This document shows positions 43,051-56,923 of a stretch of 64,000 bases of DNA, piece after piece. A program made the translations under genes and the position numbers. The stretch is from assembly GCA_027311945.1 (NCBI GenBank), contig DAICXZ010000018.1, forward strand, positions 1 through 64,000. Direction: 5' to 3'. The notes below the pieces were generated by a model. It was not told the origin of the DNA. It saw nothing but the letters and a program-made list of their open reading frames with translations, and made no database searches. This DNA is from Erythrobacter sp. Its GTDB lineage: Bacteria > Pseudomonadota > Alphaproteobacteria > Sphingomonadales > Sphingomonadaceae. Each line of letters begins with the position of its first letter. Positions within the stretch are counted from its first letter, which is position 1.

Positions 43051-43141
43051 CCGCTCGTGCTGAGCTTGTCGAAGCACTGCTTTTCTTTGAACGCAGCGCT
43101 GGAAGAAGAAAGACAGCCCTTCGACAAGCTCAGGGTGAGCG
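43051..43141. repeat. Palindromic element A, copy 1 (between gatC and gatA)
   Basis: The left arm has CTGAGCTTGTCGAAG and the right arm CCTTCGACAAGCTCAG, about 45 bases apart. The inner flanks (CTGCTTTTCTTT and AAGAAAGACAG) also roughly pair, so the whole can form one long hairpin of about 90 bases. Four such copies occur in the window. Confidence 0.85.
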
Positions 43142-49535: not shown

Positions 49536-49631
49536 CCGCTCATCCTGAGCTTGTCGAAGGATCGTCTTTCCTTCAGGCCTCACGCACACCCGCAAGAAAG
49601 ACAGCCCTTCGACAAGCTCAGGGCGAGCGGA
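49536..49631. repeat. Palindromic element A, copy 2 (after atp12)
   Basis: The left arm CTCATCCTGAGCTTGTCGAAGG and right arm CCCTTCGACAAGCTCAGGG are joined by about 45 bases with pairing inner flanks ('CGTCTTTCC' and 'AGAAAGACAG'). A partial left-arm-like 'GCTCACCCTGAGCC' (49511-49524) precedes it. It lies in the 230-base convergent space between atp12 and the Mla operon. Confidence 0.85.
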
Positions 49632-53429: not shown

Positions 53430-56400
53430 ATGACCGAGGAACTGTCCAAGACTTTCGACCCCGCCGCCATCGAGGCGAAATGGTATGCGCACTGGGAAGA
53501 AACCGGCGCCTTCCGGCCCGAGCGCCCGGATGCCGAGCCCTTCACGATCGTCAATCCTCCGCCCAACGTCACGGGCTCTTTGCATATCGGTCATGCGCTG
53601 GACAACACGCTGCAGGACATTGTGATCCGCTACGAGCGCATGAAAGGCAAGGATGCGCTATGGGTGGTGGGCACCGACCATGCCGGGATCGCCACGCAGA
53701 TGGTGGTGGAACGGCAGATGGAAGCCGCGCAGGACAAGCGCACCAACTACACGCGCGAACAGTTCATCGAGAAGGTGTGGGAGTGGAAGCACGAGAGCGG
53801 TGGCACGATCACCCGCCAGCTGCGCCGCCTCGGCTGCTCGATGGACTGGAGCCGCGAACAGTTCACCATGGACGAGCACTTCACCAAGGCGGTGCTCAAG
53901 GTGTTCGTGGACCTTTATAACAAGGGCCTGATCTACCGCGACAAGCGGCTGGTGAACTGGGACCCCAAGCTGAAGACCGCGATCTCCGACCTCGAAGTCG
54001 AGACGCAGAACGTTCAGGGCGGGTTCTGGCACTTCAAGTACCCGCTGGCGGACGGCGTGACCTTGGACGATGGCCGCGACTATATCGAGGTCGCCACCAC
54101 CCGGCCCGAAACGATGCTGGCCGATATGGCCGTGGCGGTGAACCCCGAAGACGCACGCTACAAATCGGTAGTGGGCAAGCATGTGGTGCTCCCGATCACC
54201 GGACGGCGCATTCCCATCGTGGTCGATGAGCATGCCGATCCCGAGCTGGGCTCAGGTGCGGTGAAGATCACGCCAGGGCACGATTTCAACGACTTCGAAG
54301 TGGGCAAGCGCGCGGGGATCAAGGCCGCCGAGATGCTCAACATGCTCGATCAGGATGCGAACGTGTGCCAGACCTCGGACGGTCTCGTGCCTGCGGAGTA
54401 CATCGGCCTGCACCGCTTCAAGCGTGATGGCGAGGATGGCGCGCGCGAGAAGGTCGTGGCGGCGCTGAAGGCCGAGGGACTGCTGATCCCGCATGTGGCC
54501 AAGACCAAGAAGGGCGAAGAGGTCGAACACGACGCTGAGCCGCGCGTGATTGCCACCCCGTTTGGCGACCGTGGCGGCGTGGTGATCGAGCCGTGGCTGA
54601 CCGACCAGTGGTATGTCGATGCCGAGAAGCTGGCTGCCAAGCCGATTGCGGCGGTGAAGAACGGCGATGTCGAGATCGTGCCCAAGAGCTGGGAGAAGAC
54701 CTTCTTCAACTGGATGGAGAATATCCAGCCTTGGTGCGTCTCGCGGCAATTGTGGTGGGGGCACCGGATTCCGGCTTGGTATGGGCCACGCCTTGAGGAC
54801 GACACTCTAAAAATGTCCGTCGACAAAGGCCAACCTGGACGTAATCCTGCACCATTTTCATCTGCTGGCAGAAAGGTTTTCGTCGCGGAGACTGAAGCGG
54901 AGGCATTGCAACAAGCGCGCGAATACTACGGCGATGACGAAATCGACATCGAGATCGGCGAGGTCGCAGGAATCAGGCAGAAGACGACGAGTGACGGATT
55001 GCCGAATTTTTTCGCAATCTCGCTCGCTCGCGACCCAGACGTCCTCGACACATGGTTCTCCTCCGCGCTGTGGCCCTTCGCCACGCTCGGCTGGCCCGAT
55101 ACAGACCCCACCTCCGCTCATCCTGAGCTTGTCGAAGGATCGCCCTTCACTTCCGAAGAAAAGAACAGTGCTTCGACAAGCTCAGCACGAACGGATGTTG
55201 GGGGTGAAAGCTCAGCACGAACGGACTTAGGGGAGGAAAGCTCAGCACGAACGGGTGGCGGGAGCCTGTTCGAAAAGCACTACCCCAACAACCTGCTCGT
55301 CTCGGGTTTTGACATCCTGTTCTTCTGGGATGCCCGCATGATGATGATGGGCCAGCAGATGACCGGGCAGAACCCCTGGCCGCGCCTTTACCTGCACGGG
55401 CTGGTGCGCGCCGCCGATGGCTCGAAGATGAGTAAGTCGAAGGGCAACGTGGTCGATCCGCTGATCCTGATCGACAAGTATGGCGCCGATGCGCTGCGCT
55501 TCTTCATGGCGGCGATGGAAAGCCAGGGCCGCGACATCAAGATGGATGAGAGCCGGGTCGAAGGCTATCGCAACTTCGCCACCAAGCTGTGGAACGCCAC
55601 CCGCTTCTGCCAGTCGAACGGCATCGGGGCTTCGGCCTCGGTCGCGGCGCCTGAAGCCAAGCTAGCGGCAAACCAGTGGATTATCGGCGAGGTCGCGCAA
55701 ACGGTCGAGGCGCTGGAAAAGGCCATGGCCGAGCTGCGCTTCGATGCCGCCGCCAACACCATCTACCAGTTCGCTTGGAGCCGCTTCTGCGACTGGTATC
55801 TCGAGCTGATCAAGCCGGTCTTCAATCCTCCCCGCTCCGGGGAGGGGGACCAGCCGCAGGCTGGTGGAGGGGCCGGTGAGACCGGGAACGAGGTGCCCCT
55901 CCACCGTCCTGCGGACGGTCCCCCTCCCCATTCTGGGGAGGATTGGTCGCCGCTCGCCGAAACGCGCGCGGTCGCCGGCTGGGCGCTCGACCAGATCCTC
56001 GTCATGCTGCACCCGTTCATGCCCTTCATCACCGAAGAGCTGTGGCACGCCCAAGGCGAACGCCCTTACGACCTGATCCTCGCAAAGTGGCCCGCACCTG
56101 AGGCTTCGGTGAGCAGGGAAGCGACCGACGCCATCGACTGGGTGATCGCGCTCACCACCGCCACCCGCGCGGCGAAGAACGAGCTGGGCATTGCGCCCGG
56201 CGCCAAGCTTGCCGCCTTCTGCCCCGCCCCGTCCGACCTTGCCAAGCGCGTGGTCGAGCGCAGCGCGGCGGCGATCGAGCGGTTGGCGCGGCTTACTCCG
56301 GTCGAGTTCGCCGAGGCTCCGGCAGGCGCGGCGATGCAAGTTGCGGCGATGGAAGACGTGTTCCTGATCCCGCTCGAAGGCGTGGTCGATCTCGATGCCG

Positions 56401-56588
56401 AACGCGCGCGGCTGACCAAGGCGCTCGAAGCCTCGCAGAAGGAGTTCAAGAGCCTCGACGGGCGCTTGTCGAACCCGGCCTTTGCCGAGAAGGCCAAGCC
56501 CGAAGCAGTCGACAAAGCCCGCGCCGATCATGCTCACCACGCGGGCGAGATCGAGCGGCTGACGGCGGCATTGGCGCGGTTGGGGTAA
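53430..56588 (+). CDS. valS: Valyl-tRNA synthetase with repeat-derived inserts
   Basis: ValRS charges tRNA-Val. About 1052 residues, some 100 longer than the E. coli enzyme. It shows the HIGH box (H52-I-G-H55 in '[13 protein letters not shown]'), the CP1 editing domain (about 185-330), '[20 protein letters not shown]', the KMSKS loop (666-670), the anticodon domain ('[14 protein letters not shown]') and a C-terminal coiled arm (about 985-1052). Three regions are odd. Residues about 456-535 have lower GC and different codon use. Residues about 562-612 encode a palindromic element plus three 10-residue tandem repeats. Residues about 799-839 encode a different palindrome. The frame is intact and synthetase motifs are unbroken, so it is presumably functional. 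Confidence 0.93.
55116..55265. repeat. Palindromic element A, copy 3, with three 30-bp tandem repeats, inside valS
   Basis: CTCATCCTGAGCTTGTCGAAGG (from 55117) and CTTCGACAAGCTCAG (55171-55185) form an element A copy with a shortened centre. It is followed by the unit 'AGCTCAGCACGAACGG' plus 14 bases, repeated at 55179, 55209 and 55239 with a 30-base period. It is translated in frame as S-A-H-P-E-L-V-E-G, then the decapeptide S-S-A-R-T-D/G repeats. Confidence 0.9.
55826..55946. repeat. Long inverted repeat (CCTCCCC type) inside valS
   Basis: Two arms of about 50 bases are imperfect reverse complements: the left runs from ATCCTCCCCGCTCCGGGGAG, the right ends with CCATTCTGGGGAGGAT. Each arm carries a small inner palindrome (CAGCCGCAGGCTG; CGTCCTGCGGACG). 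It is translated in frame as residues about 799-839 of ValRS, rich in Gly, Pro and charged residues. The arm sequence resembles a known dispersed alphaproteobacterial repeat type. Confidence 0.88.
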
Positions 56589-56923
56589 TGGCTTTAGCGC
56601 CTCAATAACAACATCCCCTCGCCCTGAGCCAAATACCAACCTCGCTCATCCTGAGCTTGTCGAAGGACTGTCCTTATCTTTGTGCGTGATGCCCGAAAGA
56701 AGAAAGACAGCCCTTCGACAAGCTCAGGGCGAGCGGGTGGTGTGGCGAGGCTCAGGAAAAACGGGTGTGGTGCCAGACATTTCCTACAGCCCACCGCCTG
56801 TGGCATGGAAAGCGCCATGACCCGCCCCTCCTCCTTTCGCGCTCCGGCTCAACAGCGCCCACACCCACGCAAAGAATTTCCCCTCAGGACAGTGTCACAC
56901 CTGTCACACCTTGGGGCTGAACC
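56589..56923. other. Intergenic region valS-queE with palindromes
   Basis: These 335 bases hold no credible gene. They contain a partial left-arm copy (CTCGCCCTGAGCC, from 56618), element A copy 4, then about 190 bases without recognisable coding sense. Just before queE lies a perfect tandem of TGTCACACC (56893-56901 and 56902-56910). Confidence 0.7.
56643..56736. repeat. Palindromic element A, copy 4 (valS-queE)
   Basis: CGCTCATCCTGAGCTTGTCGAAGGA at the left pairs with CCCTTCGACAAGCTCAGGGC at the right. The inner flanks ACTGTCCTTATCTTTG and AGAAGAAAGACAG also pair. This copy is the most complete of the four and can fold into one long stem. Confidence 0.88.

Follow-up and report, generated by a model that had tools for sequence, protein, structure and literature searches.

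The analysed window, a stretch of 64,000 nucleotides from Erythrobacter sp., carries the valS gene, and alignment of its product, valine--tRNA ligase (ValRS), with 40 other ValRS (n=41) revealed three long extra segments, designated sites C, A and B. The features are given below by position in the window, strand and nature:

43060..43133, no strand assigned: REP dimer of the family found at valS site A; no through-coding frame found.
49545..49621, no strand assigned: REP dimer of the same family; no through-coding frame found.
53430..56588, plus strand: valS, valine--tRNA ligase, 1052 amino acids (NCBIfam NF004349: score 1151 bits, cut-off 704).
54783..55013, plus strand: site C, a variable segment (amino acids 452-528), non-palindromic here and partly folded in the model (alignments; AlphaFold2).
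55098..55268, plus strand: site A insert (amino acids 557-613) in the loop between LGWP and KHYP (41-ValRS alignment; empty-site comparison; pLDDT).
55110..55140, plus strand: left REP monomer in valS, its end reading CCGCTC-ATC-CTGAGCTTGTCGAAG-GAT.
55168..55194, minus strand: right REP monomer in valS, head to head with the left one, with the stem triplet GTG/CAC instead of ATC/GAT.
55178..55254, plus strand: tandem 30-bp units, 2.6 copies, composed of the right monomer's distal part and flank (Tandem Repeats Finder).
55827..55952, plus strand: site B insert (amino acids 800-841), of a palindrome family other than that of site A (41-ValRS alignment; hairpin; pLDDT).
56651..56727, no strand assigned: REP dimer of the site A family, adjoining valS downstream; no through-coding frame found.

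At site A, the ValRS of the window's own genome (G000; other G-numbers denote the genomes of relatives) contains 57 residues, compared with 5 in close relatives, i.e. approximately 52 added residues between matching flanks in the 41-ValRS alignment; measured from LGW to HYP, the loop comprises 61 residues in G000 and 9 in the relative G026. The DNA of G026, in which site A is empty, agrees with that of G000 in 59 of 60 bases of the right flank and in the nearest 42 bases of the left flank, and in the ValRS of T. thermophilus (1gax) the matched sides of site A are 5 residues apart. The first-pass annotation had proposed a dispersed palindrome translated in frame within ValRS, adding about 51 residues at 562-612; this was essentially right, with regard to the position (557-613 in the alignment) as well as to the gap in close relatives, and the insert is not conserved in distant ValRS, as illustrated by 1gax.

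The core CTGAGCTTGTCGAAG is present twice within the open valS frame (55123-55137, plus strand; 55171-55185, minus strand), the triplet pairing is intact in both monomers (ATC/GAT and GTG/CAC), and the REP pair is calculated to form a hairpin of -37.2 kcal/mol (z -5.35). For the adjoining repeats at 55178-55254, Tandem Repeats Finder reported a period of 30, 2.6 copies, 89% matches and 0 indels; from the earlier description as three perfect-phase 30-base units, the common phase was retained and the three full, identical units were not. The relative G021 carries an insert homologous to that of G000 with two tandem units (by eye), and growth of the units by slippage, from two in G021 to 2.6 in G000, is plausible.

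Site B and site C had been missed in the first-pass annotation. The arms of the site B insert (GGGGAGGGGGACC) are located at 55839-55851 and 55917-55929 and are calculated to form a hairpin of -102.1 kcal/mol (z -8.63); repeat-like inserts at this site were also present in G010, G022, G023 and G035 (41-ValRS alignment). Site C takes the place of a short linker after HRIPAWY in G000 and many related ValRS; a palindrome was called there only in G008, a CGTC-type REP (RHSRAGGNPE..LDPRLRGDD).

The valS frame is open across both inserts (sites A and B), and the matches listed for the own genome include no second valS-like place. On these two grounds we infer that the site A insert is translated, probably as a flexible stretch rich in Pro, Gly, Ser, Thr and Glu. 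The same two observations and the homologous insert in G021 led to the rejection of an assembly artefact (an assembly-error frameshift included) or a dead gene, the probability of which is practically negligible. AlphaFold2, run on 57 ValRS, gave a model with a mean pLDDT of 87.5 and a pTM of 0.83; segments of at least three residues with pLDDT below 50 were amino acids 466-468, 470-475, 565-610, 804-827 and 829-835, all of which, except 466-468 and 470-475, fall within the inserts A and B. Because of the low pLDDT in this model, sites A and B are probably floppy, disordered loops on an otherwise normal enzyme. The insert is presumably neutral for ValRS.

The window contains 8 exact core arms, i.e. 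4 dimers with cores from 43060, 49545, 55123 and 56651 (100 dinucleotide shuffles: mean 0.17 arms, maximum 2). The three dimers outside valS, announced beforehand as intergenic copies, were indeed without a frame that was coding on both sides and open through the element. In the own genome as a whole, 52+43 = 95 exact core copies were counted (reversed control: 0). The triplets flanking the core are complementary in 83 of the 95 copies (1000 shuffles: mean 18.6, maximum 29), and both monomers have the same triplet in only 2 of the 36 dimers in which both cores are exact; because the flanking triplets pair, yet rarely match between partners, each monomer can fold alone, i.e. each arm is a REP-like hairpin. 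The dimers are arranged head to head with an arm span of 72-80 nt in 40 of 60 rows of the own genome. With a self-hairpin of covarying stem and many dispersed, paired copies, mostly outside genes, the element has the properties of a REP dimer. A constant unpaired GTAG/CGTC tag is absent: the letters beside the core are CCGCTC-N3-core-N3'-TG, and only a minority of copies have GTC as N3, so that CGTC is not constant and the family falls outside the GTAG/CGTC superfamily. REPIN/RAYT systems consist of short dispersed inverted pairs of REP hairpins, which the present dimers resemble, with the difference that no RAYT (Y1_Tnp, PF01797) was found in the own genome (0 matches; the control was positive in 5 of 14 genomes) and, in consequence, the element does not appear there as a RAYT-mobilised REPIN. 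The phage search gave no match; the plasmid search returned 9 Sphingobium records of 76-79% identity.

The exact cores of the own genome form 58 clusters (places with at least one exact core), 54 of which have no accepted through-coding frame. The remaining four lie inside genes: valS, glyS (GlyRS beta), carA and truB (names according to NCBIfam). The coding-site script did not flag valS, the left flank of which lies in the variable site C; its assignment rests on the 41-ValRS alignment. A further place flagged as coding (C10:124441) was rejected, since frames on the other strand or in the flanks scored better. Besides the copy inside glyS, a second REP dimer is situated just upstream of this gene (C22:88888, L233 ~3289). 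Another dimer lies between hslV and hslU (C14:14910, L190 ~2011-2073; names by eye), and within its right arm there is an ATG that shares the reading frame of the hslU start region (MSGNWMIMDNLTPK). The arm span of this intergenic dimer is 63 nt, the same as that of the four coding copies; arm span is therefore no mark of coding copies.

All four coding copies of the own genome are read as E(L/P)VE...STSS, and the search of the genome for the ValRS peptide, suggested at the outset, thus recovered the same peptide type in glyS, carA and truB. Of the 116 stop-free six-frame readings of the 44 other dimers, the ELVE+STSS type accounts for 16, and in 57 the left arm reads LSLSK. In a further palindrome family found in valS of relatives (SEVEG), 13 of 13 copies are read in one phase, a count that treats related genomes as independent; the right arm in G168 is read in a different phase. 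The occurrence of four out of four copies in the ELVE+STSS phase, a small sample, points to selection on phase.

In the relatives, two-piece matches (counted by hand) were obtained for truB in 72 of 138, for glyS in 52 of 134 and for carA in 12 of 136 genomes with a match; those of glyS and carA are not all proven inserts. Palindromes above control were present at the glyS site in 10 of 10, in carA in 9 of 10 and in truB in 8 of 20 genomes, proportions that give no frequencies because the 40 sequences were chosen among genomes with two-piece matches; the glyS site of G169 exceeded its control narrowly (11.5 versus 11.0). Since 12 of the 20 sequenced truB loops are without a palindrome, the two-piece counts of this gene overstate the REP inserts, and the TruB site, judged by its sequences, may have been variable before any REP. 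Most of the non-palindromic TruB loops at the REP site (L358, L360, L363-L372) share a SAF-TAGRPDPYDP-type sequence.

G010, a genus relative, has another abundant palindrome (AGGAGG), of which 70 of 73 places were covered; they form 41 clusters, 7 of them inside genes. The positions hit are sites A and B of valS, the glyS loop that is also used in the own genome, and uup, uvrA, metH and a biotin carboxylase-like gene. Three further loci of G010 flagged by the script (L385, L400, L415) were rejected, as the other strand or flanking frames scored better. In uup (L409) and glyS (L417) of G010, a second repeat-like in-frame segment was seen by eye elsewhere in each gene.

Across the family, the site A loop is enlarged (at least 15 residues, palindromic or not) in at least 62 of 298 genomes and 36 of 96 genera, a lower bound, with good-scoring genomes judged empty partly on score alone, approximately 10 of the 298 genomes giving fragmentary valS matches only, and G201, G287, G297 and G339 (weak or broken match) left out. 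Five of the 171 loci examined for the loop were dropped for want of a pattern match (G339 and the outgroups G040, G046, G047 and G059). The family genomes, genus relatives and nine named loci (five of them filled) yielded 74 insert sequences and 92 short loops; 73 inserts are distinct, one being present twice (G129 and the named locus L102). All 74 inserts are open, an open frame having been required for their extraction. Their residues include 13% Pro, 14% Gly and 12% Ser, and Ile, Phe, Tyr, Trp and Met are scarce.

The loop length is bimodal (8-13 versus 19-61 residues), and inverted arms exceeded those of 30 shuffles each in 64 of the 74 inserts; in the other 10 site A inserts no palindrome above the shuffles was found, and the inserts of G312, G231 and G276 resemble ordinary loop growth. 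According to arm sequence, the inserts were sorted into seven classes, including CTGAGCYTGTCGAAG, CGAGCGAAGTCGAG, CCCTCCCGCNNGCGGGAGGG and a CGTC-type REP; as the classes are regex-based and loose for G+C-rich families, the latter were lumped to leave four classes. The re-use of the same loop by unrelated palindromes across the family had not been part of the first-pass annotation. In G082 (L314), the site A insert DTRHSELVSESS..ILKHVQDDE resembles a CGTC-type REP pair, a peptide type known from other alphaproteobacteria. Within the alignment of 166 ValRS, 51 rows have a palindrome call at site A and one row each at sites B and C, and no other position has any; this alignment spreads sites B and C over several columns, so that palindromes are under-called there.

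A palindrome found in valS is often, but not always, common in its genome. The exact SEVEG core, which misses G061 and G302 (their arms begin with another base), has 28 to 105 copies in six of the eight carriers tested, 1 and 2 copies in the other two and 0 copies in four of four non-carriers. The AGGAGG palindrome was located at 73 places in G010, where both valS sites (A and B) and glyS contain pairs of it; it is also present in genomes without it in valS (18 places in G021, 5 in G061) and is rare in some carriers (4 in G031, 3 in G163, 0 in G022).

On a tree of 166 ValRS cores, presence and absence of the enlarged loop cannot be explained by fewer than 28 changes (mean of 54 and minimum of 43 in 200 shuffles of the labels), and four coarse palindrome classes plus the empty state require 40 changes, counted without separating gain from loss. 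The lower number compared with the shuffled mean therefore indicates inheritance plus much turnover. Close pairs differ in state (G031/G034, 96.0% core identity; G304/G064, 94.4%; G021/G020, 93.7%). Core identity between G000 and the empty G026 is 89.1%, and between G000 and G021 86.2%; G020, to which G021 is nearer (see above), is empty as well. That G000 and G021 share a homologous insert, yet each is nearer to an empty relative, suggests for the site A insert of G000 an earlier origin followed by losses in some lineages, or acquisition of valS by transfer, rather than a fresh insertion.

These data could be read as a single ancestral insertion per loop, with the palindrome families later swapped by recombination and often deleted, in which case recurrence would simply be inheritance. 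The clustering of presence and absence on the tree, the insert kind shared by some relatives (G061/G302, 97.6% core identity) and the homologous inserts of G000 and G021, each nearer to an empty relative, are all in line with such a history. However, the families differ in sequence, so that homologous swapping would need the gene flanks and a donor valS; the SEVEG palindrome is common in the same genome in six of eight carriers; the loops are short in order-level outgroups and T. thermophilus; and 40 changes are required even with coarse classes. This history is regarded as unlikely. The probable explanation is instead that palindromes active in the respective lineages inserted again and again, and that a filter left those copies that are read in frame and as hydrophilic peptides in expendable loops.

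The agreement of the ValRS insertion points within few codons across families could also be due to a sequence-specific target, i.e. a preference of the elements for a DNA motif present by chance at these loops. Such a preference is very unlikely: one loop is used by different families, one family uses the loops of unrelated genes, and no common flanking motif was seen by eye.

Alternatively, the inserts may be selected because they alter aminoacylation, fidelity or the amounts of tRNA-related enzymes, or because they form hairpins in the mRNA by which translation is slowed. Indeed, three of the four genes hit in the own genome are tRNA-related (valS, glyS, truB), the hairpins are very stable (as calculated for site B), and gain and loss are frequent. 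In G010, in contrast, uup, uvrA, metH and the biotin carboxylase-like gene are hit as well, the peptides encoded by the inserts vary from family to family, and both inserts of G000 are of low confidence in the model and probably disordered; selection for an effect is accordingly held to be quite unlikely. Against the explanation by repeated insertion and filtering stand the negative search for a RAYT in the own genome, the 10 site A inserts without a palindrome above the shuffles, the insert shared by G000 and G021, the AGGAGG copies in genomes without it in valS and their rarity in some carriers, and the fact that both valS monomers have kept their pairing, as would also suit a role in DNA or RNA.

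According to the explanation preferred here, a head-to-head heterodimer of two REP monomers would have been inserted in frame into a short ValRS loop that is dispensable for catalysis, and part of its right arm would later have been duplicated in tandem to give the 30-bp units. Palindromes active in a given lineage would insert at many places, most insertions within genes being lost by selection; the survivors would be stop-free, in-frame copies that are read in a hydrophilic phase and lie in an expendable loop, such as the putatively permissive loops of ValRS (A and B), GlyRS-beta, CarA, TruB and others. If few loops pass this filter in every lineage, unrelated families would converge on those loops. 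Both the filter by selection and the repeated insertion, as opposed to swapping and loss, would then be responsible for the observed distribution.

The closest parallel in the mode of working, already drawn in the first-pass annotation and holding in this respect, are the Rickettsia palindromic elements, reportedly described by Ogata and co-workers in 2000 and 2002. By analogy, both are palindromic repeats situated in frame in genes of functional proteins as well as elsewhere, with added peptides that appear to be tolerated; the present elements differ in that they are head-to-head pairs of short monomers and in that unrelated palindrome families re-use one enzyme loop across a family. In-frame palindromes within genes of functional proteins are described for Rickettsia in passages of PMC10969869. 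Likewise, passages of Di Nocera et al. 2013 (PMC3733652) mention REPs within 'tRNA synthetases in X. oryzae, E. lithoralis and S. alaskensis' and within tRNA pseudouridine synthase B (truB), and consider that an insertion into a flexible linker or loop may be neutral. The sole shared site reported in these passages is that in recB of two Xanthomonas; where other genes of one functional category contain REPs, the positions differ. As far as described there, the GTAG/CGTC REPs resemble the present elements in being intragenic head-to-head dimers, often heterodimers, and those of the CGTC type in being apparently without a dedicated transposase; unlike them, the valS site A family is without the constant GTAG/CGTC tag. 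In-frame palindromes (Rickettsia) and intragenic REPs in sphingomonad tRNA synthetases and truB are thus already in print in these passages (PMC3733652 for the latter), whereas no report of a family-wide re-use of one loop by unrelated palindromes was found in the open-licence PMC literature.

For the family, the inserts constitute a natural replicated experiment, in which one loop of an essential enzyme is filled, empty or otherwise filled over dozens of genera, with close relatives as controls. This makes it testable how often mobile DNA supplies new segments of bacterial proteins, and whether these segments acquire a use or are no more than tolerated. The loops of ValRS, GlyRS, CarA and TruB may accept long foreign inserts, and genome annotation should take into account that REP-derived residues can belong to real proteins. 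A more far-reaching and rather improbable reading is that few enzyme loops (ValRS A and B, GlyRS-beta, TruB, CarA, UvrA and MetH) are a standing landing place for successive unrelated REP families, some of the donated disordered peptides having been kept for the tuning of charging, fidelity or partner binding. If true, mobile palindromes would time and again supply essential proteins with new intrinsically disordered segments.
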